Assembly (NCBI GenBank): GCA_009921765.1
Contig: RFXC01000133.1
Location: 1-11,880 of the forward strand
Direction: 5' to 3'
Length of the DNA stretch: 11,880 nt
From: Betaproteobacteria bacterium
Lineage (GTDB): Bacteria; Pseudomonadota; Gammaproteobacteria; Burkholderiales; Burkholderiaceae
Shown here: positions 1 to 11,880 of the stretch, piece by piece
Layout of the letters: each line of letters opens with the position of its first letter
Position numbering within the stretch: the stretch's first letter is position 1
The notes under the pieces: generated by a model
Database searches by the model: none
What the model was told of the DNA's origin: nothing
The model's input: the letters and a program-made list of their open reading frames with translations, nothing else
Made by a program: the position numbers and the translations under genes

Positions 1-23
1 GCCTGACCGTCGAGAGCCCACCG

Positions 24-611
24 ATGCGAACCGCCGAAGTCACCCGCAACACCGCCGAAACCCAGATCCGGGTGCGCGTCAATCTCGATGGCGCAGGCCG
101 TCAGGTGCTCGCCACCGGCGTGCCCTTCCTCGATCACATGCTCGATCAGATCGCCCGCCATGGCCTGATCGATCTCGAGGTCGAGGCGAAGGGTGACCTG
201 CACATCGATGCGCATCACACCGTTGAAGACATCGGCATCACGCTTGGCCAGGCGTTTGCCCGCGCCGTGGGCGACAAGCGCGGGATCCGCCGCTACGGCC
301 ACGCCTATGTGCCGCTTGATGAGGCGCTGTCGCGCGTGGTGATCGACCTGTCGGGCCGGCCCGGGCTCGTCTGGCAGGTGGAGTTTCGGCGCGCCATGAT
401 CGGCACCTTCGATGTCGATCTGGCGCATGAATTCTTCCAGGGCTTCGTGAACCACGCGCTCGTCACCCTGCATGTCGACAACCTGCGCGGCGACAACGCC
501 CATCATCAGTGTGAAACCGTCTTCAAGGCATTTGCGCGCGCCCTCCGGATGGCGATCGAGGCCGACCCCCGTCTCGAAGGCCGTATCCCCTCCACCAAGG
601 AGGCGCTCTGA
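24..611 (+). CDS. hisB: Imidazoleglycerol-phosphate dehydratase (HisB, monofunctional)
   Basis: HisB removes water from imidazole glycerol phosphate to give imidazole acetol phosphate, in the cytoplasm. The 195-residue protein has both metal-binding repeats of the family: DAHHTVED near residues 62-69 (H64, H65, E68) and DNAHHQCE at 157-164 (H160, H161, E164), plus FLDHM with H38. The length fits the single-domain enzyme. There is no N-terminal histidinol-phosphatase domain as in enterobacterial HisB, so that step must be encoded elsewhere. The ATG at 24 puts the conserved N-terminal strand at the usual place. A TGA at 4-6 may end the preceding gene, but too little of it is present to identify. 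The stop at 609-611 abuts the hisH start, indicating a shared transcript. Confidence 0.97.
597..603 (+). promoter_or_regulatory. Strong ribosome binding site for hisH
   Basis: AAGGAGG lies inside the last codons of hisB, 8 nt before the GTG at 612. It is the best Shine-Dalgarno match in the his block and fixes the non-ATG start of hisH. Confidence 0.8.
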
Positions 612-1250
612 GTGACGACCATTGCCGTCGTCGACTATGGCATGGGCAACCTTCGCTCGGTGGCGAAGGCGCTCGAGCATGTCGCCCCGAAAGCGCGAGT
701 CACCATCACCGGTGAAGCGGCTGCCATCGATGCGGCTGACCGCGTGGTGTTCCCCGGACAGGGCGCGATGCCCGACTGCATGCGCCATCTTGCTGAATCG
801 GGTCTGCGCGAAGCGCTTCTGCGGGCCGCTGCAACCCGGCCGCTCTTTGGTGTGTGCGTGGGCGAACAGATGCTGTTTGACTGGAGTGCGGAGGGCAACA
901 CGTCCGGGCTTGGCCTTCTCGCCGGCAAGGTGTTGCGCTTTCCCGACGATGTGATGCGCACCGCCCAGGGTGCCCGCCTCAAGGTGCCGCACATGGGCTG
1001 GAATCGCGTCGAGCCCACTGGCGAACACCCGCTTTGGGGGGGCATCACGCCTGGCTCGTTCTTTTATTTTGTGCACAGTTTTTTTGCTGTGCCGGACGAT
1101 CCGCGGGTCGTTGCCGCCACGTCCGAATATGGCCTTCGCTTTACCTGCGCCGTTGCGCGGGATAACATTTTCGCCACTCAGTTCCACCCCGAGAAAAGCG
1201 CGGCCAACGGCCTCAGGCTCTACGAAAACTTCGTCAGCTGGAATCCTTGA
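612..1250 (+). CDS. hisH: Imidazole glycerol phosphate synthase, glutamine amidotransferase subunit (HisH)
   Basis: HisH hydrolyses glutamine and passes ammonia to HisF, with which it forms the IGP synthase. It is a 212-residue class I glutamine amidotransferase. The nucleophile is C82 in GVCVGEQ, and the rest of the triad is H192 and E194 in [14 protein letters not shown] at 48-53 matches the oxyanion-strand PGxGA motif. The family usually has GICLGMQ around the cysteine, so GVCVGEQ is a mild variation. The start is GTG at 612, directly after the hisB stop and 8 nt after a strong AAGGAGG. In its last third (about 1036-1092) the gene has a run of seven G and a run of seven T, unusual in this GC-rich DNA, but the frame stays intact. 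Confidence 0.97.
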
Positions 1251-1303
1251 GGGCGTCGTGTCCCGATTCCCCAACTTCCGCGCCACCTAACCTTCTTCTT
1301 CCA

Positions 1304-2044
1304 ATGCTGCTGATCCCCGCAATCGACCTCAAGGACGGCCGCTGCGTGCGGCTTCGACAAGGTGACATGGACGATGCCACCGTGTTTGCTGATGACCCCG
1401 TCGAGGTGGCGCGCACCTGGCTGGAGCGCGGCGCCCGCAGGCTCCACCTGGTGGACCTCAATGGTGCCGTGAGCGGCCGACCGCGCAACGAGGGCGTGAT
1501 CCGCGAGATCCTCGACGAAATCTCGGGTCGCATCCCGGTGCAGCTGGGTGGCGGCATCCGCGACCTGGACACCATCGAGCGCTATCTCGATGGCGGCCTG
1601 TCCTATGTGATCATCGGTACGGCTGCGGTCAAGAATCCCGGGTTTCTGCACGATGCCTGTGGCGCGTTCCCTGGTCAGATCATCGTCGGGCTCGACGCAA
1701 AGGACGGCCGCGTAGCCACCGACGGCTGGAGCAAACTCACCAAGCATGATGTGGTGGACCTCGCGCGCAAATTCGAAGACTACGGCGTGGAAGGCGTGAT
1801 CTATACCGACATCGGTCGCGACGGCATGCTCACCGGCGTCAATATCGAGGCCACGGTGCGGCTCGCGCAGGCCCTCAAGGTGCCTGTGATCGCCTCTGGC
1901 GGTATTGCCGGCATCGAGGACATCGATCGCCTTTGCGAGGTCGAGGACGAAGGTGTCGAGGGCGCCATCCTTGGGCGCGCGCTCTACGAAGGAAAGCTTG
2001 ACTTCGCCGCGGCGCAGCAGCGCGCCGATGAGCTGAACGGCTGA
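1304..2044 (+). CDS. hisA: ProFAR isomerase, 1-(5-phosphoribosyl)-5-[(5-phosphoribosylamino)methylideneamino]imidazole-4-carboxamide isomerase (HisA)
   Basis: HisA opens the ribose ring of ProFAR by an Amadori rearrangement to give PRFAR, the substrate of HisF/HisH. The 246-residue (beta/alpha)8 barrel starts MLLIPAIDL, which puts the catalytic acid at D8. The second catalytic Asp is D131 in GLDAKDGR. The C-terminal phosphate-binding parts are visible as TDIGRDG (169-174) and ASGG (197-200). The frame is open back to a TTG at 1247 overlapping the hisH stop, but that adds 19 residues with no family match, so ATG 1304 is preferred. No Shine-Dalgarno is seen before it. The 53-bp gap to hisH is the widest in the his block. 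Confidence 0.96.
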
Positions 2045-2051
2045 GCCCCGC

Positions 2052-2810
2052 GTGCTCACCAAGCGCATCATTCCCTGCCTGGATGTCACCGCAGGCAGGG
2101 TCGTGAAGGGCGTGCGCTTTGTCGAACTGCGTGATGCTGGCGACCCGGTGGAAATCGCCCGGCGCTACGACGAGCAGGGCGCAGACGAACTCACCTTTCT
2201 CGACATCACCGCCTCAAGCGACGACCGCGACATCATCCTGCATGTCATCGAATCGGTAGCCGATCAGGTGTTTATCCCGCTTACCGTGGGCGGCGGTGTT
2301 CGCGCGGTTGAAGACGTACGCCGCCTCCTGAACGCGGGCGCCGACAAGATCTCGATCAACACCGCAGCCATCCAGAGCCCGAGACTGGTGGCCGATGCCG
2401 CCGGTCGGTTTGGCTCGCAATGCATCGTGGTGGCGATCGATGCCAAGGCCGATGGCCCGGGGCGCTGGCAGGTTTATACCCATGGCGGCCGCCGCGGCAC
2501 GGGGCTTGATGCAGTCGCCTGGGCGCGCGAGGTCGAACGCCTTGGTGCCGGAGAAATCCTCCTCACCAGCATGGATCGAGACGGAACCCGTCAAGGATTC
2601 GATCTGGGCCTCACCCGTGCGGTGGCCGATGCGGTCGGCATTCCGGTGATTGCTTCTGGGGGCGTTGGCAGCCTCGAGCATCTGGCTGAGGGCGTGACCG
2701 AGGGGCGGGCTGATGCTGTGCTCGCAGCAAGCATTTTTCACTTCGGTGAATTCACCGTCGCTCAGGCCAAGCGTCTGATGGCCGATCGCGGCATTCCGGT
2801 GCGGCAATGA
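2052..2810 (+). CDS. hisF: Imidazole glycerol phosphate synthase, cyclase subunit (HisF)
   Basis: HisF uses ammonia from HisH to cleave and cyclise PRFAR, giving IGP for histidine and AICAR, which returns to purine synthesis. The 252-residue barrel is homologous to the HisA just upstream. It opens [12 protein letters not shown] with the conserved C9 and catalytic D11. The second catalytic acid is D130 in VVAIDAK. TVGGGVR (78-84) and ASGGVGS near residue 202 are the phosphate-binding loops. The start is GTG at 2052, 7 bp after hisA. The stop overlaps the hisI start by 4 bp (ATGA), which suggests translational coupling. Confidence 0.97.
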
Positions 2811-3220
2811 GTGAGTCCGTACAGGCGGCGAGCGCGCCCGGGGGCTGGCTCGATGATGTACGCTGGGACGCTGCGGGTCTGGTGCCCGCCATTGCCCAGG
2901 ACGCGACAAGCGGACGGGTCCTGATGGTCGCCTGGATGAATCGCGAGGCCCTGGCGGAAACCGAGGCCACGGGGCGTGCGGTCTACTGGTCGCGCTCGCG
3001 CGGCCGGCTCTGGCGCAAGGGCGAAGAATCGGGGCACAGCCAGCGGGTCCATGAGATCCGGCTCGACTGTGACGGCGACGTGGTGCTGCTTGCGATCGAG
3101 CAGACGGGCGGCATCGCCTGCCATACTGGTCGGCAGTCATGTTTTTTCAGTCGGCTCGAGGCTGGCCGCTGGGTGGCGGTTGACCCCGTGCTGAAAGACC
3201 CGGAGCTGATCTACCGATGA
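2807..3220 (+). CDS. hisI: Phosphoribosyl-AMP cyclohydrolase (HisI)
   Basis: HisI opens the adenine ring of phosphoribosyl-AMP to give ProFAR. The 137-residue, single-domain protein has VAWMNREAL (41-49), [18 protein letters not shown] (60-77) and the metal-binding set: D87, C88, D89 and D91 in LDCDGD, then C105 and C112 in ACHTGRQSC. These three cysteines are the zinc ligands of the family. It overlaps hisF by ATGA at its start and hisE by ATGA at its end. It is separate from HisE, unlike the fused HisIE of enterobacteria. Confidence 0.97.
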
Positions 3221-3627
3221 ACACCCGCCGGCCTGACGCGGTCCTGCCCGCCCATCCTGCCGCCTCCCAGGCGGCCGAGCCTGCCGCCGAGGCGGTGCTT
3301 GCGCGTCTGGCCGCGGTGATCGAGTCGCGCAAGGGTACCGATCCGGGCAGTTCCTATGTCGCTCGATTGCTGGCTCGCGCGCCCGATTCGGTGCTCAAGA
3401 AAATCGGCGAGGAAGCCACTGAAACCGTAATGGCGGCGAAGGATGGCGAGCGCGAGCGCATCATCGCTGAAACCGCAGACCTTTGGTTTCACTGCCTGGT
3501 GATGCTCGCCCACTACGGGCTGGGACCTGGCGATGTGCTGGCCGAGCTTGCGCGCCGGGAGGGGCTGTCGGGTCTGGAAGAGAAAGCACTCAGGAAGGCG
3601 ATCGCCCGTGAAGGAGAACAGGCTTGA
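3217..3627 (+). CDS. hisE: Phosphoribosyl-ATP pyrophosphohydrolase (HisE)
   Basis: HisE removes pyrophosphate from phosphoribosyl-ATP, the second step of histidine synthesis. It belongs to the all-alpha NTP pyrophosphohydrolase (MazG-like) fold. Of 136 residues, the core runs from about 25: [17 protein letters not shown] (61-77) gives the E65/E66/E69 metal cluster and [13 protein letters not shown] (85-97) supplies E85 and D88. The first 25 residues are an Ala/Pro-rich extension not needed for the fold. The ATG at 3217 overlaps the hisI stop, with GGAG 11 nt upstream. A start further in would break this ATGA coupling, so the longer form is kept. The stop overlaps the TTG start of the next gene. 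Confidence 0.95.
3612..3616 (+). promoter_or_regulatory. Ribosome binding site deciding the TTG start of the HIT gene
   Basis: AGGAG lies 7 nt before TTG 3624. The HIT frame has an in-frame TGA at 3609-3611, so TTG 3624 is the only start upstream of the first conserved cysteine motif, and this site supports it. Confidence 0.8.
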
Positions 3628-3977
3628 AGCATGACTGCATCTTTTGCCGCATCGTCCGCGGTGAAATACCGTCGAAGAAGGTCTACGAAGACGATGACAT
3701 CCTCGCGTTTTATGACATCAATCCTAGTGCGCCGGTGCATTTCCTCATGATTCCGAAGCTGCACCTGGAAAACCTGTATGACGCCGATTTGTCACATCAA
3801 CCGCTTATCGGCAAGCTATTTGGAATGGCTGGCACGCTGGCCCGCGAACAGGGGCTGCATGATGGCTTCAGGGTCATTGTCAACAACGGCAGGGTCGGCA
3901 GGCAGGAGGTGTATCATCTCCACGTCCACGTGCTGGGCGGACCCGAACCGCTGGGTTCGGGCAATTTGCGCCGCTGA
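3624..3977 (+). CDS. Histidine triad (HIT) family purine nucleotide hydrolase, HinT-like
   Basis: HIT proteins of the HinT branch are small dimeric nucleotide-binding enzymes that hydrolyse phosphoramidates and acyl-adenylates of AMP or GMP. The 117-residue protein has the branch pattern: [20 protein letters not shown] at the start (C5, C8) and HLHVHVLGG near the end, with H98, H100 and H102 as the triad. The start is TTG 3624, overlapping the hisE stop as TTGA. It is forced by an upstream in-frame stop and backed by AGGAG 7 nt before it. It sits between the his and tat genes, a position I recall from other betaproteobacteria. No histidine-pathway role is established; a link through AMP-type leaving groups would be speculation. 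Confidence 0.93.
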
Positions 3978-3989
3978 GCCGGCATCACC

Positions 3990-4000
3990 AGGAGCAAGGA
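3990..4000 (+). promoter_or_regulatory. Ribosome binding site for tatA
   Basis: AGGAG at 3990-3994 and AAGGA at 3996-4000 both precede the ATG at 4005, by 10 and 4 nt. They support ATG 4005 over ATG 4014 and suggest strong translation of tatA. Confidence 0.6.
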
Positions 4001-4004
4001 ACAA

Positions 4005-4271
4005 ATGGGAGCGATGAGCATCTGGCACTGGCTGATCGTGCTCGTGATCATCATGCTGATCTTCGGCACCAAAAAGCTGAAGAACATCGGCTCGGATCTC
4101 GGCGGAGCAGTCAAGGGCTTCAAGGAAGGCATGAAAGACGGTGCCGACAAGGCGGCTGCCGACGCTCAGGCGCCAGCGCAACCGCCGCCGGCTGCTGCGC
4201 CTGCGCAGCAGGTCCCGCCCGCGCAGGTGGCTGCGCGGACCATCGACGTGGAAGCCAAGGAAAAGCACTGA
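4005..4271 (+). CDS. tatA: Sec-independent protein translocase subunit TatA
   Basis: TatA is the pore-forming or membrane-thinning subunit of twin-arginine export, which moves folded proteins across the inner membrane. The 88-residue protein has one N-terminal membrane helix (about 5-20, [14 protein letters not shown]), the invariant F20-G21 hinge, then an amphipathic helix with [20 protein letters not shown] (23-42). The C-terminal half is Ala/Pro/Gln-rich and probably unstructured, as in many TatA proteins. The gene follows the HIT gene by 27 bp and has its own good ribosome binding site. It is followed by a terminator-like hairpin before tatB. Confidence 0.96.
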
Positions 4272-4295
4272 CGGGCTGCGCGCCCGGTCTCTGAC

Positions 4296-4330
4296 AGGCG
4301 AGCGGCTGGCGAAGCCGCTCGCTTCGTTTT
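4296..4330 (+). terminator. Terminator-like hairpin between tatA and tatB
   Basis: GCGAGCGGC (4298-4306) pairs perfectly with GCCGCTCGC (4314-4322) around a 7-nt loop. The stem can extend by a G-T wobble (4297/4323) and one A-T pair (4296/4324). TTCGTTTTG follows at 4323-4331. It has the form of a rho-independent terminator with an interrupted T run, so partial rather than full termination is the likely effect. It lies in the 92-bp gap between tatA and tatB, the widest gap inside the tat genes. Confidence 0.55.
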
Positions 4331-4363
4331 GAGCGCCGTCCTCGCGCCGCCCCCGAGCCCCGC

Positions 4364-4798
4364 ATGTTCGACTTCGGATTCAGCGAGATGGCCGTCACCG
4401 CGCTGGTAGCGCTGGTGGTGCTGGGCCCCGAGCGCCTGCCCCGGGTCGCGCGTCAGGTTGGCCAGTGGTTGGGCAAGCTTCAGCGCTATGTCACCGATGT
4501 GAAAGCCGATATCAATCGGCAGATGGACCTGGAAGACCTGCGCAAGCTCCAGTCCGAGGTCACCACCGCTGCTCGTGAGGTGGAGTCCTCGGTCAAGTCC
4601 GTGGTCGACGGTGCACAGGCGCAGTTCGATTCGCTTGCGTCGTCGTTCGAGGGCGATTCCAAGCCCCCCGAACCGGTCACCGACTGGGACCGCATCTACG
4701 CCGTCCGTCGTTCGCGTGACCGGATCCGCGATCGCCGGATCGAGCGCGACCGCGAACTCAAACGCAAACGCCCGAAGCGGCGTTTCTACCGGAGCTGA
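4364..4798 (+). CDS. tatB: Sec-independent protein translocase subunit TatB
   Basis: TatB forms the substrate-receptor complex with TatC for twin-arginine export. The 144-residue protein has the TatB signature: MFDFGFSE with the conserved E8, one membrane helix (about 5-20), and the LGPERLP hinge (20-26) with G21-P22, followed by a long amphipathic helix and predicted coiled stretch to about residue 95. The last 30 residues are strikingly charged (RRSRDRIRDRRIERDRELKR, then more K/R), giving a strongly basic cytoplasmic tail. ATG 4364 gives the standard N-terminus; no clear Shine-Dalgarno is seen. tatC follows after 11 bp. Confidence 0.95.
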   Translation: MFDFGFSEMAVTALVALVVLGPERLPRVARQVGQWLGKLQRYVTDVKADINRQMDLEDLRKLQSEVTTAAREVESSVKSVVDGAQAQFDSLASSFEGDSKPPEPVTDWDRIYAVRRSRDRIRDRRIERDRELKRKRPKRRFYRS

Positions 4799-4809
4799 GT
4801 GCGTCGCCC

Positions 4810-5751
4810 ATGGCCCAGGAAGAAAGCTTCATCTCGCATCTGGTTGAACTGCGTGACCGGCTGATCAAGTCGCTGATCCTGGTCTTGATCATGTTCGGCG
4901 TGTGCTTCTATTTTTCGCGCGACATCATGCTGTTCCTGTCGCTGCCGCTCTATGAGGCGATGCCCCCGGGCGCCAAGCCGGTATTCCTCGCGGGCGAGGG
5001 TGCGTTCTTCACGCTCACCAAGGTGGCATTTCTCTCGGCATTGCTGTTTTCATTGCCCTGGGTGCTCTACCAGGCCTGGGCGTTCGTGGCGCCAGGGCTC
5101 TACGAACATGAAAAGCGGTTTGCGTTGCCGCTCATCATGTCCAGCGTATTTTTCCTGGTGGTAGGCATCGGGTTTGCCTACATGTTCGTACTGCCCGCCG
5201 CTTACAAGTTCTTCTTCTCGTTTGCCGAGGGTACCGGCGCCGAGATCATGCAGGACCTGCAGAAATACTGGGATTTCACCCTGGCGATCTTCTTTGGCTT
5301 CGGGGTGGCTTTCGAAGTGCCGGTGGTGGAGATGCTGCTGGTCAAGCTCGGTATGGTTACCCAGCAGCAACTGCGCGACGTTCGTCGGTATGTGATTGTG
5401 GGCGCATTCGTGGCCGCTGCCATTCTCACGCCGCCTGACGTGCTGAGCCAGTTCATGCTGGCCATTCCGCTCATCCTGCTCTACGAACTGGGCATTTACC
5501 TGGCTGGCTTTATCAAGGCCTACAGCCGCAACCCCGAGAGCGCGGAGTCCGACGCCGCCAAGGCAGAGGCCGCTGCGTCCGATGGCGCGGCCGCGGGTGC
5601 CTCGGGTGCCGCTAGTGCTGCAGGTGCCCCAGCCGCCTCTGCCGATTCAGGTGCGGGCGTTGCGGTGAGTGCAACGGCTGCCGACGCGATTGCGGCATCC
5701 ACCGGCGCATCCGGCTCCTCCAGCCCTTCGTCAGACAAGCCCCAGGGCTGA
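4810..5751 (+). CDS. tatC: Sec-independent protein translocase subunit TatC, with long C-terminal tail
   Basis: TatC is the six-helix membrane protein that recognises the twin-arginine signal. The 313-residue protein has SFISHLVELRDRL (6-18) at the N-terminus, the cytoplasmic-loop motif around F92 and E101 (AFVAPGLYEHEKR), matching E. coli F94 and E103, and the later conserved acids E169 (GVAFEVP) and D210 (TPPDVLSQ). Six hydrophobic segments end near residue 236. The remaining 75 or so residues are an Ala/Ser/Gly-rich, acidic, low-complexity tail, whereas E. coli TatC is 258 residues in all. The tail should lie in the cytoplasm. The gene ends 122 bp before the stop of the convergent NIF3 gene. 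Confidence 0.96.
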   Translation: MAQEESFISHLVELRDRLIKSLILVLIMFGVCFYFSRDIMLFLSLPLYEAMPPGAKPVFLAGEGAFFTLTKVAFLSALLFSLPWVLYQAWAFVAPGLYEHEKRFALPLIMSSVFFLVVGIGFAYMFVLPAAYKFFFSFAEGTGAEIMQDLQKYWDFTLAIFFGFGVAFEVPVVEMLLVKLGMVTQQQLRDVRRYVIVGAFVAAAILTPPDVLSQFMLAIPLILLYELGIYLAGFIKAYSRNPESAESDAAKAEAAASDGAAAGASGAASAAGAPAASADSGAGVAVSATAADAIAASTGASGSSSPSSDKPQG

Positions 5752-5873
5752 AGCGTGTGCTGGTCGGCATCGTGATCCGCTGAGGTCTGCGTCGGATCGC
5801 AAGGTCTGTGATGGCCCTTGGCGCGCACGCACCACCGGCCAGAGCCCATGTTCAAACAGGCACTGCCAGCAGG

Positions 5874-6674
5874 TCAGACCGGGTTCGGATCGTCGATGAA
5901 CTGCTGCTCGAGCCCCAGCGCCTGGGCGGCCGCCTGTGCGAGGGCCTGTACGCCATAGCGTTCGGTGGCGTGATGGCCAGCCGCGAAATACACCAGGCCG
6001 AGTTCGCGCGCCAGATGTGTGGTGCGCTCTGAAATTTCGCCGCTTACGAAGGCATCGGCGCCCGATTTCGCAGCCTCGACAATCATGTCCTGTGCGGCGC
6101 CGGTGCACCATGCGATGCGCCTGATCGGTCGGTCGAGCGTGCCAACCACGACCGGCGCCTGTCCCAGTCGACGCTTGAGGTGAGCAGCAATCTGACGCGT
6201 ATCGCGGGTGTGGGGCAGCTGGTGCCAGCTGATCAGCTCGTACTCGCCGAGCCGACCATCGGTCTGCCAACCCAGGTGCCGTGCGAGCTGGGCGTTGTTG
6301 CCGAGTTCCGGATGCGCGTCAAGCGGCAGGTGGTAGGCAAACAGATGAATGCCCGCGTCGAGCAGCTCGCGTACCCGTGACAGCTGCGTACCGGTGAGCC
6401 GTGGATCTTCGCCCCGCCAGAACCAGCCGTGATGAACCAGCACGGCGTCGGCGCGCGCCGCCCGCGCCGCTTTCAACAGAGCCAGGCTCGCAGTGACCCC
6501 ACAGACCAGCCGGCGAATCGGGCGCGTTCCTTCCGCCTGCAGACCGTTTGGGCAATAATCCTTGAAGCGGTTGGTCTCGAGCGTGGCGTCCAGCCAGTCG
6601 CAGAGCGTCCGTGCGCTCACGCCTCTCACACCTGATCGGGTGGCCGCACTGCCCGTGTTTGTTTCGGCTTTCAT
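5874..6674 (-). CDS. NIF3/DUF34 family dinuclear metal-binding protein (YbgI-like)
   Basis: This family forms toroidal hexamers with a two-metal site. Its exact activity is unsettled; E. coli YbgI is annotated as a putative GTP cyclohydrolase type I-like or metal-insertion protein. Counting from the ATG at 6674 (266 residues), FKDYCPNGLQ (37-46) and LVHHGWFW (79-86, H81 and H82) give the N-terminal half of the site, D119 in LPLDAHPELGNN a further ligand, and GHHATERYG (233-241) with H234/H235 and E238 the C-terminal half. The start is uncertain. The family usually begins close to residue 20 here, so GTG at 6629 or 6620 are real alternatives. The 6620 codon has GAGAGG just before it, and ATG 6674 would overlap the start of the divergent protease gene. 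Confidence 0.93.
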   Translation of the reverse strand: MKAETNTGSAATRSGVRGVSARTLCDWLDATLETNRFKDYCPNGLQAEGTRPIRRLVCGVTASLALLKAARAARADAVLVHHGWFWRGEDPRLTGTQLSRVRELLDAGIHLFAYHLPLDAHPELGNNAQLARHLGWQTDGRLGEYELISWHQLPHTRDTRQIAAHLKRRLGQAPVVVGTLDRPIRRIAWCTGAAQDMIVEAAKSGADAFVSGEISERTTHLARELGLVYFAAGHHATERYGVQALAQAAAQALGLEQQFIDDPNPV

Positions 6675-7829
6675 GCTCAGAAAACTCTGGTTGCTGTTTG
6701 CGCAGACGGTCGTCGTAGTGCTTGCGATCGTTTTCGTGGTCGCGACGCTGCGTCCCGAGTGGCTGCCGCGGCGGCTGTCGTGGCCGGCCACACTGACCGG
6801 CGCGGCCGGCGGGGCGAGCGGTCCAACCGAGACGCCTCGCGAGGCGGCGATTGTGTCATACGCGCTGGCCGCGCAGCGCGCGATGCCTGCGGTGGTCAAT
6901 ATCCACACCACGCGCGCGGGGCGTCTGCCACCCGGCCACCCCATGACCGACCCCTCGGTCAGGCGGTTTTTCGGCGAGCCCGTGCCGCCCGATCGACAGC
7001 CGTGGAGCAATCTCGGATCAGGGGTGCTGGTGGGCCGCGACGGCCACATCCTAACCAGCCCGGCATCGTGGTGCTGCTTGCCGACGGCGCACGCGAACGC
7101 GCGAGGCTGGTCGGCAGTGATCCGGAAACCGATCTGGCAGTGCTGAAAATCGAGCGGCGTGATACGCCGGGAATCGAATTCGGCGATTCCGAGTCGCTTC
7201 GAATCGGCGATGTGGTGCTTGCAATCGGCAATCCCTTCGGTGTCGGGCAATCGGTCACCATGGGGATCGTTGGCGCGCTGGGCCGCAGCCAGCTCGGTAT
7301 CAACACGTTCGAGAATTTCATCCAGACTGACGCGGCCATCAACCCGGGCAATTCTGGCGGCGCACTGGTCGATGTTCGTGGCCGGCTGATTGGGATCAAC
7401 ACCGCGATCTACTCGCGAAGTGGCGCGCCGGGGTCGCTTGGCATCGGCTTTGCAACCCCGATCTCCACCGCGCGTCTGGTACTCGAACAGATTCTTCGCG
7501 ACGGGTCGGTCACGCGTGGTTACATCGGAGTCGAGCCTCAGGACCTGACCCCGGAACTGGTGGAGGCATTCAGACTCGCGCGACGCAGTGGCGCGCTGAT
7601 CGCTTCGGTCATTCGGAACGGTCCGGCCGAGCGGGCGGGCGTGCGACCCGGCGACATTCTGGTGGCAGTCGAGGGGCAGGCTGTTAACGGTACCACGGCC
7701 ATGCTCAATGCCATCGCCGGACTGGTGCCCGGGGCGCGTGCGCGCTTGAAGCTGGTTCGCGAAGGTCGCGAACTTGAGGTGACCGTGACGGTGGGCAAGC
7801 GTCCGCAGCCAGGCGCCCGCCGCGAGTAG
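6673..7829 (+). pseudogene. Disrupted DegS/HtrA-like membrane-anchored serine protease (frameshift, catalytic His lost)
   Basis: Intact relatives are periplasmic trypsin-like proteases anchored by an N-terminal helix with one PDZ domain, acting in envelope quality control or sigma-E signalling. Frame one starts at ATG 6673 (MLRKLWLLFAQTV) with a membrane anchor at about 5-25, then reads the protease domain to LGSGVLVGRDGHILT, ending its homology at codon 128 (7054-7056). It runs on out of register to TGA 7144-7146. Homology resumes in another frame at IVVLLADG (7065), with the catalytic Asp in ETDLAVLKI (7131-7133), the Ser in NPGNSGGAL (7353-7355) and one PDZ domain (about 7510-7800), stopping at 7829. 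Relatives have about ten residues, including the N-x-HVV catalytic His, between these points; only 8 nt remain. A deletion of some 22-28 bp fits. A sequencing or assembly fault is possible. Confidence 0.85.
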
Positions 7830-7853
7830 GGCCTTCTGCTCGTTCGTTCCGCT

Positions 7854-9737
7854 TCAAGCGGGGCGCAGACGGATACCCGGGTCAGCCTGGGCGGCGGCAA
7901 GCGCGTCGGCCAGACGATCGCCCTGGCTCGCCTGCAACTGAAAGAGGAGCGCGCCGCGTGCCACCGTGTCGCCCCGGCCACATGCGAGATCAACGCCCGC
8001 GTGGGGGTCGGCAGGCGCGCCAGCCAGTCGGGCGATCGCAGAGATTCGGCGCGCATCGATCGCAAGCACCTGACCGGCCTGATCGGCGGTGATCGGATGG
8101 GAATGAAGCCGTGGCGTCGGCGCCTCGGGCTGTGCGCCCTGCGCCTCGATGATCGCCTGCATTGCGCGCCGGGCTGCGCCGCTTTGAAGCAGTTCATACG
8201 CGCGCAGCTCTCCCCTGCGTATATCGCCCACGTCAGGGTCCAGCGCAAGAATGCGCGCGGCAAAGAGCACGGCTTTGGCGCGCAGGTCGGCCGGTGCAAG
8301 CGGGTCGCAGGTGAGCACCTGCAGCACATCGCGGACCTCCAGCGCGGGCCCGATGCCGCGACCGATCGGTGCCGATCCGTCGCTGGGGTAGGCCCGAACG
8401 GTCATGCCGAGCTGGGCGCCCAACCGATCGAACGTGGCGGCCAGGGCGCGTGCGTCCTCGAGCGTGGCCACCTTGCCGTCGGGCATGTATGGGATGTCGA
8501 CCACCACGTGGGTGGCGCCCGCCGACCATTTTTTCGACAGGATCGAGGCCACCGACCAGCGTCGCGTATCGAGCCCGAGCTGACGCTCCAGCCGATGCAT
8601 GGTTTCGTCGAGGACCGAGTGATTGAGCTTGCCGTTCCAGGCGATACAGCCGCCCGCCCGCTCGACGGCCGCACGAAGTTCGGTGGGCGTCAGGTCCACC
8701 CGCGCGAGCACCTCCATGGCATCGGCCGTGCCTGCCGCCGAGGTGATGGCGCGCGATGAGGTTTTCGGGATCAGCAAGCCGTGCGCGGCGACGATTGGCA
8801 CCACCACCATCGTGACCCGGCTGCCGGCCGTGCCGCCCAGCGAATGTTTGTCGACAACTGGCGCGCGGCCCCATTCGACGCGGGGCATGAGCCTGCAGCG
8901 CCAGCGGGCCACGCAGGCGAGTTCATCATCATCGAGATCATTGGCGCAGGCAATGAGCAGCGCGTTGCGGGCTGCCTCGTCGAGCGTACCGTCGATGACT
9001 GCGCAGAGCAGCTCCTGCCAGGCTGCCTGGTCGAGCCGCTGGCCAGCGAGCTTGGCGCTGAGCAAGCGGGCTGCGGATGCGCTTGAACGCGCGGGCGCAT
9101 GCGGGGTTGCGGGCGCTGTGTTGCCCGACCGTCGGTCGCCCAGGTTCGAGACGATTGCATCAAGCAACCGGATGGCGCCCGTGGGCAGATCGCCGTCATT
9201 CATGACCTGCACGACCTTGAGCGCGGCGGGATACGGGGCGCGCGAGCGCGCCAAGCGGCGGCTGATGTCATCGGCCGACTCGCGGCCCCTGGCTGCAAGG
9301 CGCGCTGCGATCAGTTCGGCTGGCGCATCAATCTCGATCACAACCAGCCTCGGCACGCGCAGGGCCAGTACGGCCGCCATGCCTCGCGAGCCGTTGGCAA
9401 TGACGTGGCGGCCGGCCACCAGATCACCACGGAGTGTTGCGGGCAGGCCATAGCGCAGCGCATGCGCCTGCCAGCTCAGTAGAAAATCGCCTCGCGCTTC
9501 GCGCTCGACGAACTGACTTTCGGTGCAGGCTTCGTGGTCTTCGCCACCGCTCTCCGAGGGCCGCGTGATGACGCGCCGCGCGAAAACGAAGCGACGCGCC
9601 GGCAGACGCGCCCGCAGCAGGTCAATCAGGCTGTCCTTGCCGACCCCGCTTGCGCCGACGATGTAGAAGAGCGTGCCGGCCGGGGCATGCGCTGCTGCGT
9701 CCGAGACTGTCGACACAGGCGGGGAAGGCTCTGTCAC
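7854..9737 (-). CDS. PhnN (ribose 1,5-bisphosphate phosphokinase) fused to type 2 thymidine/AMP phosphorylase
   Basis: The 627-residue protein has two domains. Residues 21-200 resemble PhnN, which makes PRPP from ribose 1,5-bisphosphate and ATP: P-loop GASGVGKDS (28-36), LLSWQAHALRYG (86-97), ANGSR (114-118), ARGRESADDISRRL (149-162) and NDGDL (180-184). Residues 201-222 are a Pro/Ala-rich linker. Residues 223-627 form a pyrimidine/AMP phosphorylase: DKHSLGG (296-302), IPKTSSRAITSAAGTAD (323-339), APIGRGIGPALEVRD (456-470) and a C-terminal PYNP-like domain. The KTSSRAITS form marks the type 2 family that includes archaeal AMP phosphorylase, not classical DeoA. That enzyme makes ribose 1,5-bisphosphate, the PhnN substrate, so the halves could form one NMP-to-PRPP route (inference). 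The start is GTG 9737, overlapping the nadC stop as GTGA; no good upstream Shine-Dalgarno is seen. Confidence 0.92.
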   Translation of the reverse strand: MTEPSPPVSTVSDAAAHAPAGTLFYIVGASGVGKDSLIDLLRARLPARRFVFARRVITRPSESGGEDHEACTESQFVEREARGDFLLSWQAHALRYGLPATLRGDLVAGRHVIANGSRGMAAVLALRVPRLVVIEIDAPAELIAARLAARGRESADDISRRLARSRAPYPAALKVVQVMNDGDLPTGAIRLLDAIVSNLGDRRSGNTAPATPHAPARSSASAARLLSAKLAGQRLDQAAWQELLCAVIDGTLDEAARNALLIACANDLDDDELACVARWRCRLMPRVEWGRAPVVDKHSLGGTAGSRVTMVVVPIVAAHGLLIPKTSSRAITSAAGTADAMEVLARVDLTPTELRAAVERAGGCIAWNGKLNHSVLDETMHRLERQLGLDTRRWSVASILSKKWSAGATHVVVDIPYMPDGKVATLEDARALAATFDRLGAQLGMTVRAYPSDGSAPIGRGIGPALEVRDVLQVLTCDPLAPADLRAKAVLFAARILALDPDVGDIRRGELRAYELLQSGAARRAMQAIIEAQGAQPEAPTPRLHSHPITADQAGQVLAIDARRISAIARLAGAPADPHAGVDLACGRGDTVARGALLFQLQASQGDRLADALAAAQADPGIRLRPA

Positions 9738-10564
9738 TCGTCCAGCCCGATATCGACCGCTGGCGCGCTCTGAGTGATCTTGCTGGTCGAAATGTAGTCA
9801 ACGCCGGTCATGGCGATGGCACGGATGGTGTCAATCCGGATGCCTCCGGAAGCTTCGATCTTGGCGCGACCTGCCACGATTCGAACCGCCTCGGGCATCT
9901 GCGCGACCGGCATATTGTCGAGCATGATCACGTCTGCGCCCGCGTCGGCAGCCTCGCGAACCTGCTCCAGTCGATCGCATTCCACCTCGATCTTGGTGAG
10001 GATCGGAAGCTTCTGCCGGGCGCGCTTGACTGCGTTGGTGATACTGCCTGCCACCGCAATGTGGTTGTCCTTCAGCATGACGCCGTTGTCCAGGCCGAGC
10101 CGGTGATTGACACCGCCACCGCAGACCACGGCGTGCTTTTCCAGCATGCGAAGTCCCGGGGTGGTCTTGCGGGTGTCGATCAGACAGGCGCTCGTGCCTT
10201 CTATCTCGGCGCGGTAGCGGGCGGTTTCAGTGGCGATGCCGCACATCCGTTGCAGGATGTTGAGCGTGGGCCGCTCGGCGGTCACGATGCTGCGCGCCGA
10301 CCCCGATACCGTGAGGAGCCGGGTTCCCTTGTCCACCCGCACACCATCTTTCACCAGCGCCGTGACCGACAGGGTGGGGTCGTAGCGCTGGAAGATGCGC
10401 TGCGCGATGCCGATACCCGCGATCACCATCGACTCTCGGGCATTCATATGGAAGGTCGCCTTCGCGTCTTCGTCGATCATGAGCTGTGCAGTGAGGTCGC
10501 AGTAGCCAATGTCTTCGGAAAGCCAGAGATCGATCAGCCGGTCGACCTGGAAGATGTCGTACAT
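9734..10564 (-). CDS. nadC: Nicotinate-nucleotide pyrophosphorylase (quinolinate phosphoribosyltransferase, carboxylating)
   Basis: NadC joins quinolinate to PRPP and releases CO2 and PPi, giving nicotinate mononucleotide for NAD synthesis. The 276-residue length is typical. Visible motifs are ERPTLNILQRMCGIAT (97-112), DTRKTTPGLRMLEKHAVVCG (130-149) followed by GGVNHRLGL, LKDNHI (164-169), the acidic EVE (203-205), MLDN (214-217) and EASGGI (237-242), covering the PRPP and quinolinate site. ATG 10564 is supported by GGAG 5 nt upstream. No nadA or nadB is in the window. It lies 26 bp after the TRAP permease gene and overlaps the next gene by 4 bp, so it looks like the middle gene of an operon. 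Confidence 0.96.
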   Translation of the reverse strand: MYDIFQVDRLIDLWLSEDIGYCDLTAQLMIDEDAKATFHMNARESMVIAGIGIAQRIFQRYDPTLSVTALVKDGVRVDKGTRLLTVSGSARSIVTAERPTLNILQRMCGIATETARYRAEIEGTSACLIDTRKTTPGLRMLEKHAVVCGGGVNHRLGLDNGVMLKDNHIAVAGSITNAVKRARQKLPILTKIEVECDRLEQVREAADAGADVIMLDNMPVAQMPEAVRIVAGRAKIEASGGIRIDTIRAIAMTGVDYISTSKITQSAPAVDIGLDE

Positions 10565-10569
10565 GAGAG

Positions 10570-10573
10570 CTCC
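10570..10573 (-). promoter_or_regulatory. Ribosome binding site for nadC
   Basis: On the - strand GGAG lies 5 nt before the ATG at 10564, in the 26-bp gap after the TRAP permease stop. It supports the chosen nadC start. Confidence 0.6.
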
Positions 10574-10590
10574 GTGAGGAAGTGGATAGA

Positions 10591-11880
10591 TCAGGATAGG
10601 GGGCGCGATGCCGCAGTGCCCCGTCCGCCGCCTTGTTGGCTGCGGTGGTACCGCCAGCCGATCCAGGCGAGCGCTGCAAGGGCAGCCAGCAGATTGAGCG
10701 AGGCCGATGGCATGAACAGGAGAATTGCCAGGGCGCCAAAGGCAAGGCGCGCAATCGTTCCGAGCGTACCGAACGCATAGTCCTCGAAAGCGATCGTCAT
10801 GACGATGGATCCCAGCGCGGTGGCGAGACACACCCCGATCACGTCGAGCAAGGCGCCTTCGAGCAAGAGCTCGGGCCGCGCGACGAAGACCACCGGCACC
10901 ACGAAGGCCACCGCAGCAATCCTGCAGGCCAGAAATCCGATCGGCATCGGGTTGGCCTTGGCAATCGAGGCGGCGGCAAAGGCCGCGACCGCAACCGGCG
11001 GTGTGATGGCCGATACCGCCGCGTAGTAGACGACCAAAAGGTGCGAGGCCATGGTGGACAGCCCCAGCGAAATGAGCGCGGGTGCCGCGAGCACCGCCGA
11101 CAGCGCATACACCGCTGGCACCGGCATCCCCATGCCAAGAACGACGATGACGGCAATGGCGGTGAACACCGTGAGCGCAAAGTTGCCCGAGGCGAGGAGG
11201 AACAGACCGGAACTGATCTTTCCGCTCAGGTCTGTCATCGAAAGGGTGCCGATCACGAGCCCGGCCACTGCGCAGGCCACCCCCACCGTGATCATCCGCT
11301 GCATGCCTTCGATCAGGGCCTGACCCAGCCGCTTTGGCAGATCGGAAAGCGGCCGGCATCGGAGCAGTATCACCGGAACCAGCGCCGCGCACGCGACCGC
11401 CCCTGCGAACGCCGGCCGGTTGAGCGCAAGCACCGCCCACGCGATGGTCACCAGCGGAACGAGATAGATCCAGTCACGCCGCAGCACCGCCCCCACCTTC
11501 GGGATCTCCGCCTGGTCGAGTGGCGCGAGGCCGGCATGATGCGCCTGCAGCGTCACGGCGAGGTAGACACAGAGGTAATAGAGAAGCCCCGGGATGATCG
11601 CCACCAGCGCGATGTCGCCGTAGGGAATGCCGGTGAAATCGGACATCATGAAGGCCGCGGACCCCATCACTGGGGGCAGAATGGCCCCACCAGTTGAAGC
11701 AGCCGCTTCGATTGCGCCGGCTCGCACTCGCATAAAGCCCGTGCGAATCATGAGAGGAATCGTGAACGATCCGGTGGTGACCACATCGGCGGTAGGCGAG
11801 CCCGAGATCGAGCCATAGAGGCCCGACGAGAGCACCGCCACCTTCGCGGGGCCGCCCACCTGGCGACCCACCAGGGCGTT
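10591..11880 (-). CDS. TRAP transporter fused permease subunit, TAXI type (partial, N-terminus beyond window)
   Basis: TRAP transporters import organic acids using an ion gradient and a periplasmic binding protein. Here about 429 C-terminal residues of the permease are visible; the frame is open through the right edge, so the gene is cut, not short. The DctM-like core is clear: GGPAKVAVLSSGLYGSISGS, then TADVVTTGSFTIPLM, EAAASTGGAILPPVMGSAAF and later ITPPVAVAAFAAASIAKANP, the two substrate-site repeats of the family. Many hydrophobic segments continue to the C-terminus, as in fused DctQ-DctM permeases that pair with TAXI binding proteins. The final segment ends in a short Arg/Gly/Ser-rich tail. 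No binding-protein gene is in view; it may lie further right. Substrate unknown. The stop at 10591 is 26 bp before nadC. Confidence 0.9.
   Translation of the reverse strand, partial: NALVGRQVGGPAKVAVLSSGLYGSISGSPTADVVTTGSFTIPLMIRTGFMRVRAGAIEAAASTGGAILPPVMGSAAFMMSDFTGIPYGDIALVAIIPGLLYYLCVYLAVTLQAHHAGLAPLDQAEIPKVGAVLRRDWIYLVPLVTIAWAVLALNRPAFAGAVACAALVPVILLRCRPLSDLPKRLGQALIEGMQRMITVGVACAVAGLVIGTLSMTDLSGKISSGLFLLASGNFALTVFTAIAVIVVLGMGMPVPAVYALSAVLAAPALISLGLSTMASHLLVVYYAAVSAITPPVAVAAFAAASIAKANPMPIGFLACRIAAVAFVVPVVFVARPELLLEGALLDVIGVCLATALGSIVMTIAFEDYAFGTLGTIARLAFGALAILLFMPSASLNLLAALAALAWIGWRYHRSQQGGGRGTAASRPLS

Follow-up and report, generated by a model that had tools for sequence, protein, structure and literature searches.

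A PhnN-phosphorylase fusion encoded with its own nadC, and a candidate phosphoribosyl pyrophosphate-recycling route from quinolinate to nicotinate

What is the substrate of a protein that joins a PhnN-like kinase to a type 2 phosphorylase, and which pathway does it serve? Such a fusion is encoded on the minus strand of contig RFXC01000133.1 (GenBank assembly GCA_009921765.1), a Burkholderiaceae contig of which we analyzed positions 1 to 11,880; this whole stretch of 11,880 nucleotides is called the window below. The fusion gene lies directly downstream of nadC, whose stop overlaps its start by 4 bases (9734 to 9737); nadC had gone unreported in an earlier interpretation made from the DNA alone (the sequence-only reading). 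With modest confidence, we regard NadC and the fusion as a module that recycles 5-phosphoribosyl 1-pyrophosphate (PRPP) while turning quinolinate into nicotinate, PRPP serving as a reusable handle for the decarboxylation. The features concerned are as follows.

7854 to 9737, minus strand: PhnN-nucleoside monophosphate (NMP) phosphorylase fusion, 627 amino acids, GTG start (open reading frame, profile and structure evidence)
9153 to 9677, minus strand: PhnN (ribose 1,5-bisphosphate phosphokinase) domain, residues 21 to 195 (TIGR02322 and conserved P-loop)
7857 to 9095, minus strand: type 2 phosphorylase domain without the N-terminal domain of AMP phosphorylases, residues 215 to 627 (4ga5/4ga4 matches, Foldseek)
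9734 to 10564, minus strand: nadC, quinolinate phosphoribosyltransferase, 276 amino acids (TIGR00078, tblastn, tree)

The sequence-only reading had recognized a PhnN-like kinase and a type 2 phosphorylase in one frame, and this was borne out: the fusion is a genuine single open reading frame (ORF) for a PhnN kinase and a type 2, AMP-phosphorylase-like phosphorylase. Of the two models suggested there for a domain search, the NCBIfam equivalog for PhnN, TIGR02322, exceeded its cut-off over residues 21 to 195 (177.2 versus 156 bits), as it did in five other fusions (173.1 to 188.0 bits). TIGR02645 (archaeal putative thymidine phosphorylase) fell short in the window (390.7 versus 434.6 bits); among the other five, it was reached by L084 (479.8 bits) and L086 (458.6 bits), both of a longer form described below, and missed by L049, L023 and L018. 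The phosphorylase half was instead captured by the NCBIfam model NF003338/PRK04350 (“thymidine phosphorylase,” type 2 subfamily; 497.3 versus 434 bits). The AMP phosphorylase equivalog TIGR03327 was missed by all six scanned fusions, with 344.9 bits in the window and 354 to 405 bits in the others against a cut-off of 535. Pfam placed Glycos_transf_3 above its cut-off (44.9 versus 27) and PYNP_C slightly under it (24.5 versus 27), and detected no kinase domain in the window fusion at an E value of 0.001.

The best solved relatives by sequence were the Thermococcus kodakarensis AMP phosphorylase structures 4ga5 and 4ga4 (254.6 and 252.7 bits), aligned from residues 215 and 223. An AlphaFold2 model built on a 67-row alignment had two confident domains (mean pLDDT, 89.8) and a low-confidence linker at residues 202 to 215; Foldseek ranked 4ga5 and 4ga4 first and second for the phosphorylase half and matched the other half to guanylate kinases. 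The sequence-only reading had allowed that this half might be a guanylate kinase. That identity was rejected, since the best of the guanylate kinase models scored 51.7 bits against a cut-off of 263. The P-loop residues G28, S30, G31, G33, K34, D35 and S36 were invariant across 19 aligned fusions, the window included. From what is known of the family, the PhnN half is expected to convert ribose 1,5-bisphosphate and ATP to PRPP.

A protein search returned 4856 homologues, and 118 of the best 120 were 561 to 641 amino acids long and covered at least 92% of the query. The alignment of 19 fusions was used for a profile scan of genome contigs, from which the best 80 of 238 confirmed loci were kept; counts out of 81 refer to these 80 plus the window. 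Both halves stood in one frame in 79 of these 80 loci, a figure that does not give nature's share of fused versus nonfused genes because the loci were selected for likeness to the fusion. Three of the 79 (L048, L066 and L067) were interrupted by a contig end, and in L079 the fusion was divided into two overlapping frames. A sequencing or assembly artefact as the source of the fusion was ruled out by the one-frame arrangement in the 79 loci. Recorded hosts were mostly Burkholderiales, with Pseudomonas, Bradyrhizobium, Rhodoplanes and Rhodovulum besides. Several names of metagenome-assembled genomes seem doubtful: those labeled Bordetella parapertussis and Thermoflexus hugenholtzii (L009, L013, L019, L026, L027 and L045) carry a betaproteobacterial fusion locus. 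In an order-wide sample, 2 of 200 genomes had the full fusion. A 74-genome sample of the family contained it in all five genomes of the window's genus (one copy incomplete), and in one genome (G222) it was matched as two pieces within one 750-amino-acid frame. All statements on the window's genus rest on draft genomes of relatives.

Two forms of the fusion were found. The window has the short form, with about 26 residues between the halves and without the N-terminal domain (about 85 to 100 residues) typical of AMP phosphorylases. In the long form, seen in seven of the 80 loci (L068, L075 and L084 to L088) and in a Variovorax plasmid copy (L089), 88 to 100 residues separate the halves. This insert matched the N-terminal domain of nonfused type 2 phosphorylases (hhalign probability, 99.3; E value, 2e-20), and that of L084 was 39% identical to an Azospirillum type 2 phosphorylase (BLAST E value, 3e-17). 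Retention of the N-terminal domain in long-form fusions fits an origin from NMP phosphorylases. The simplest history that we infer is that PhnN was joined to a whole NMP phosphorylase and that the N-terminal domain was later lost in the short form.

The most constant neighbor of the fusion was nadC. The window NadC reached the TIGR00078 equivalog cut-off (323.5 versus 198.4 bits); its assignment to ModD was rejected, as the ModD model gave 119.5 bits against a cut-off of 178.85. By tblastn, 74 of 81 loci had nadC upstream, on the fusion's strand in all matches listed. Where the upstream sequence ran to 900 bases or more, it was present in 71 of 73 loci; five of the seven loci without it have 126 upstream bases or fewer. 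In 16 Cupriavidus-type loci about 1 kb lies between nadC and the fusion, and clustering placed an opposite-strand gene in this gap, one member of which belongs to the MarR family. The adjacency was rejected as a one-clade artefact, because the link was present in alpha-, beta- and gammaproteobacterial loci, two Pseudomonas loci excepted. These two, from Pseudomonas baltica and Pseudomonas sp. 286 (L065 and L077), carry the short-form fusion with no nadC in the 6 kb before it and offer a natural test of the fusion acting alone.

The fusion-linked NadC proteins form a group of their own. A second nadC above the cut-off was found elsewhere in 16 of the 25 fusion genomes searched, within about 1 kb of nadA in 14 of the 16 (exceptions, G287 and G288); nadA itself was found in 17 of 27 fusion genomes, and nadB above its cut-off in 16 of 27. 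In a tree, 72 different fusion-linked NadC rows and 18 other rows, the latter from loci centered on second nadC genes, fell on opposite sides of one branch (support, 100/98). Single placements are unsure, since the tree tool flagged long branches, L113 and L071 among them, and possibly false joins. Identity to the window NadC was 59 to 100% for fusion-linked proteins (59% for L071, at least 67% for the others) versus 39 to 45% for other NadCs. A dedicated extra NadC is more in keeping with a catabolic role than with the supply of NAD.

The phosphorylase half also has residues of its own. In a comparison of 82 fusion rows with 10 nonfused type 2 phosphorylases, R280, N368, H373 and W394 did not vary among the fusions (81 or 82 rows) and occurred in none of the 10 nonfused proteins, which have M in place of R280, G in place of N368, L in place of H373, and Q or L in place of W394. 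S306, A277, I365, A449 and F492 were nearly fusion-specific in the same comparison, and H298, K325, S327, S328, R329, S398 and K402 were common to both sets. W394 sits four residues ahead of S398, which we take to be the counterpart of the base-contacting serine of Escherichia coli thymidine phosphorylase; N368, H373 and W394 presumably lie close to base-contacting positions of thymidine phosphorylases. These differences suggest that the phosphorylase half acts on a base other than that used by AMP phosphorylases.

Further evidence came from the gene neighborhoods, examined as regions of 7 to 20 kb around the fusion plus two plasmid regions of 26 to 29 kb. In Pandoraea, Trinickia, Herbaspirillum and some Cupriavidus, the fusion-nadC pair adjoins genes of nicotinate degradation (nic). 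Assigned through solved structures were NicX (405 bits to 7cn3) and NicF (291 bits to 3ot4, sequence identical to 3uao) in Trinickia mobilis (L094), and NicC (562 bits to 5eow) and NicE (373 bits to 4fq7) in Pandoraea capi (L093). NicA, NicB and NicD are labels based on domain make-up, likeness and position only; Pfam recognized a 2Fe-2S protein in L044, a molybdenum hydroxylase that also has cytochrome c domains in L110, and cytochrome c domains and an alpha/beta hydrolase in L093. With tblastn queries taken from L093, L094 and L110, at least two nic genes were detected in 6 of 28 extended fusion loci hand-picked for named hosts (L093, L094, L099, L101, L107 and L110), and NicB alone in one more (L134). 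As a control, none of 18 loci around other nadC genes of fusion genomes had a nic gene by tblastn.

Co-occurrence was not limited to adjacency. NicX above 400 bits was found in 26 of 40 distinct fusion genomes chosen from the loci. Across the order it was found in 3 of 200 genomes, and the fusion is present in one of the three. Among 349 Burkholderiaceae, 105 had NicX (E value up to 1e-110) and 40, spanning five genera, had a fusion match (E value up to 1e-100). NicX was present in 38 of these 40 (not in G483 and G519) versus 67 of the 309 without a fusion match (Fisher p 3e-20, uncorrected for kinship); for two of the 40 (G591 and G616) the listed match starts no earlier than residues 166 and 170, so their PhnN half is only putative. 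In 11 of the 40, no more than 10 kb separated NicX from the fusion; six of these are from genus g109, four from g94 and one from g130; by coordinate match, Pandoraea, Cupriavidus and Trinickia belong to genera g109, g94 and g130.

How could these parts work together? The NadC and PhnN reactions and the phosphorolysis of NMPs are established for the respective families. In the proposed cycle, NadC, encoded by the overlapping gene, would couple quinolinate with PRPP to yield nicotinate mononucleotide (NaMN), CO2 and pyrophosphate; the C-terminal half of the fusion would cleave NaMN by phosphorolysis, using phosphate and releasing nicotinate and ribose 1,5-bisphosphate; and the N-terminal PhnN half would use ATP to convert ribose 1,5-bisphosphate back to PRPP. 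The net reaction would be quinolinate + ATP + phosphate to nicotinate + CO2 + ADP + pyrophosphate, and in many Burkholderiaceae the nicotinate could enter the NicABCXDFE route. Each product is the substrate of the next enzyme, provided that the phosphorylase accepts NaMN. Because the bond between ribose and the pyridinium ring is energy-rich, phosphorolysis is expected to proceed in the forward direction. PMC9700705 describes an archaeal NMP phosphorylase that uses AMP, CMP and UMP, and the action of E. coli PhnN on ribose 1,5-bisphosphate. The fixed partnership with nadC, the nic clusters and residues R280, N368, H373 and W394 together point to NaMN rather than AMP, CMP or UMP, and from these we infer the substrate of the phosphorylase half as well as which way the cycle runs and what it serves. 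That the fusion is a bifunctional NaMN phosphorylase/ribose 1,5-bisphosphate kinase which, with its own NadC paralogue, closes a cycle that regenerates PRPP as a cofactor and feeds nicotinate catabolism falls, in our judgment, just on the probable side.

Several observations weigh against this cycle. No nadC lies in the 6 kb upstream of the fusion in L065 and L077. As many as 21 of the 28 extended fusion loci lack any nic gene, adjacency being confined to a few clades, and 14 of the 40 distinct fusion genomes have no NicX above 400 bits. PncB, which would remake NaMN from nicotinate, was found in 7 of 14 genomes searched. Within the window's genus, nadA and above-cut-off nadB were each found in none of four genomes and pncB in none of five, and NicX and NicC were either absent or represented by weak homologues of no more than 41% identity. 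Nicotinate made there would thus have no recognized use, and splitting NaMN would drain the sole NAD route found.

Since nadA, nadB and pncB were not found in that genus, HAAO, a possible quinolinate source, occurs in four of its five genomes, and NicX and NicC are weak, a different role fits the window's genus better: the phosphorylase might degrade ordinary NMPs and PhnN make PRPP, the substrate of NadC, which would salvage quinolinate into NAD. Several lineages lacking nadA, including the window's genus, yielded no nadC above the cut-off other than the fusion-linked one, and PMC11452294 reads the phnN-nadC link of Variovorax and Jezberella as NAD synthesis. This supply of PRPP for NAD leaves unexplained the second NadC group in genomes that also have a nadA-linked nadC, as well as the adjoining nic genes; NAD synthesis should, as a matter of general knowledge, need little PRPP; and the fusion-specific residues argue for a base different from that of AMP phosphorylases. 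Taken over all hosts, we consider it unlikely, albeit the strongest of the competing accounts. A nadC-independent salvage of nucleotides, in which an NMP and phosphate give a base and ribose 1,5-bisphosphate and thence PRPP, was the proposal of the sequence-only reading. Part of it held: the partner is of the NMP phosphorylase type, an origin that the long-form N-terminal domain fits, and family knowledge makes ribose 1,5-bisphosphate the expected intermediate and PRPP the product. The fold and catalytic residues shared with archaeal AMP phosphorylase, the TIGR02322 score and the two Pseudomonas loci without a nearby nadC are also in keeping with it. Its generality was not supported: the near-universal nadC link among the examined loci (71 of 73), the nic clusters, the fusion-specific residues and the failure of all six scanned fusions to reach the AMP phosphorylase cut-off together make general salvage improbable. 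A phosphorylase acting on thymidine or pyrimidine nucleosides, with a kinase half that is inactive or has nothing to do with it, would agree with the database name “thymidine phosphorylase” and the NF003338 match. Models of classical thymidine and pyrimidine nucleoside phosphorylases were far under their cut-offs on the window fusion (85 to 142 versus 269 to 571 bits; 85.3 versus 570.7 for thymidine phosphorylase TIGR02643), the PhnN half including its P-loop is conserved in the 19 aligned fusions, and the guanylate kinase models fail, so that we give this account hardly any weight. Phosphonate degradation was set aside as well: in line with the sequence-only reading, which had noted no phn genes nearby, inspection by eye, without a phn model search on the window or on whole loci, recognized no phn gene among the window ORFs and no carbon-phosphorus (C-P) lyase gene in the window or among the scanned neighbor proteins.

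The proposed cycle from quinolinate to nicotinate is made of parts of known kinds; as far as our literature search goes, their combination and the cycle are new. That search, on quinolinate degradation, NaMN phosphorylase and PhnN fusions and with most subscription papers outside its coverage, turned up no account of these two domains in one protein, of any NaMN phosphorylase or of a cycle making nicotinate from quinolinate. The fusion shares its fold and catalytic positions with archaeal AMP phosphorylase TK0352 of T. kodakarensis (PDB 4GA4 to 4GA6), the best match by sequence and structure, but the window protein has PhnN in front in place of the N-terminal domain, misses the AMP phosphorylase cut-off and differs at the four residues. 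Its kinase half is placed with E. coli PhnN of the C-P lyase pathway by the PhnN equivalog model, but is joined to a phosphorylase and has nadC as its partner gene. As in Bordetella-type quinolinate salvage (NadC, Bug69/Bug27), the locus has a TIGR00078 NadC, and a Bug27-like gene in 27 of 81 loci. In contrast, PMC11452294, in its available part, treats phnN as a lone gene tied to NAD synthesis and mentions neither a phosphorylase half nor a decarboxylation cycle. Homologues of NicX, NicC, NicE and NicF and NicA-, NicB- and NicD-like genes of the Pseudomonas putida/Bordetella nic cluster adjoin the module in a number of genera. Nicotinate is the starting compound of the established nic route (see, in part, PMC9304392 and PMC10142695); the module would add quinolinate as an entry. 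If the cycle operates as proposed, PRPP would be a recycled handle in catabolism beyond its role as a building block, a phosphoribosyltransferase of NAD synthesis would have been recruited as a quinolinate decarboxylase, and ribose 1,5-bisphosphate would gain a new use. Quinolinate, an end product of the kynurenine route, would acquire a defined bacterial fate through a new entry route, the presence of two nadC genes in some bacteria would be explained, and more than 100 listed proteins now called “thymidine phosphorylase” or “phosphonate metabolism protein PhnN” would have their names corrected.

Candidate uptake genes accompany the pair. Upstream of the window nadC, at a distance of 26 bases, lies one further feature, belonging to a tripartite ATP-independent periplasmic (TRAP) transporter.

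10591 to 11880, minus strand: TRAP transporter fused permease subunit, cut by the window end (TIGR02123, 405.1 bits versus a cut-off of 320.65)

In a relative (L048), a gene for a TAXI-type solute-binding protein precedes the TRAP permease (TIGR02122, 143.8 bits versus a cut-off of 84.35). Behind the Variovorax fusion lies a TctC gene whose closest match is Bug27 (457 bits to 2qpq, against 206 for the runner-up). Genes sharing 50% or more identity with this TctC gene make up the count of 27 in 81 loci given above, an association that speaks for the quinolinate module; none lies in the window. According to PMC11452294, the affinity of Bug27 and Bug69 for quinolinate is submicromolar, and bug27 is adjacent to nadC and phnN in Variovorax and Jezberella.

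Other neighbors of the fusion varied among hosts. In the window, an HtrA-type protease (HtrA-type domains by Pfam) adjoins the fusion, and genes that look like those for histidine biosynthesis, a HIT protein and tatABC, presumably ordinary housekeeping genes, run toward the fusion operon at positions 3 to 7829. In 20 of 81 loci, nadC and the fusion have in their vicinity a gene for an FRG-domain protein (cluster c5; for example, L100:8824-9678, L099:8341-9165 and L032:1147-1953), which matched Pfam PF08867 in the three members checked. Its hosts are Comamonadaceae, Caballeronia, Herbaspirillum and the window's genus, and the Variovorax plasmid copy is annotated likewise; two members checked correspond to the PADLOC candidate defense family PDC-S15. 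A tentative reading of this recurrence is that FRG proteins target pyridine nucleotides. In Zwartia and Jezberella, for which genome searches found no nadA and no NicX above threshold, and in relatives (L108:1345-7605, L105 and L026:4233-8687 for the whole group), the fusion is followed by a conserved set of an amidohydrolase, a TetR protein and a 507-amino-acid protein without a Pfam match, joined in Zwartia and Jezberella by an AA_synth-family protein and a periplasmic binding protein; this set could represent another fate for the product. Finally, on a Sphingobium plasmid (L092:5617-7985), the gene for a nonfused type 2 phosphorylase overlaps by 4 bases a gene annotated as phosphoribosylpyrophosphate synthetase, which is a second, independent link of the type 2 phosphorylase family to PRPP.

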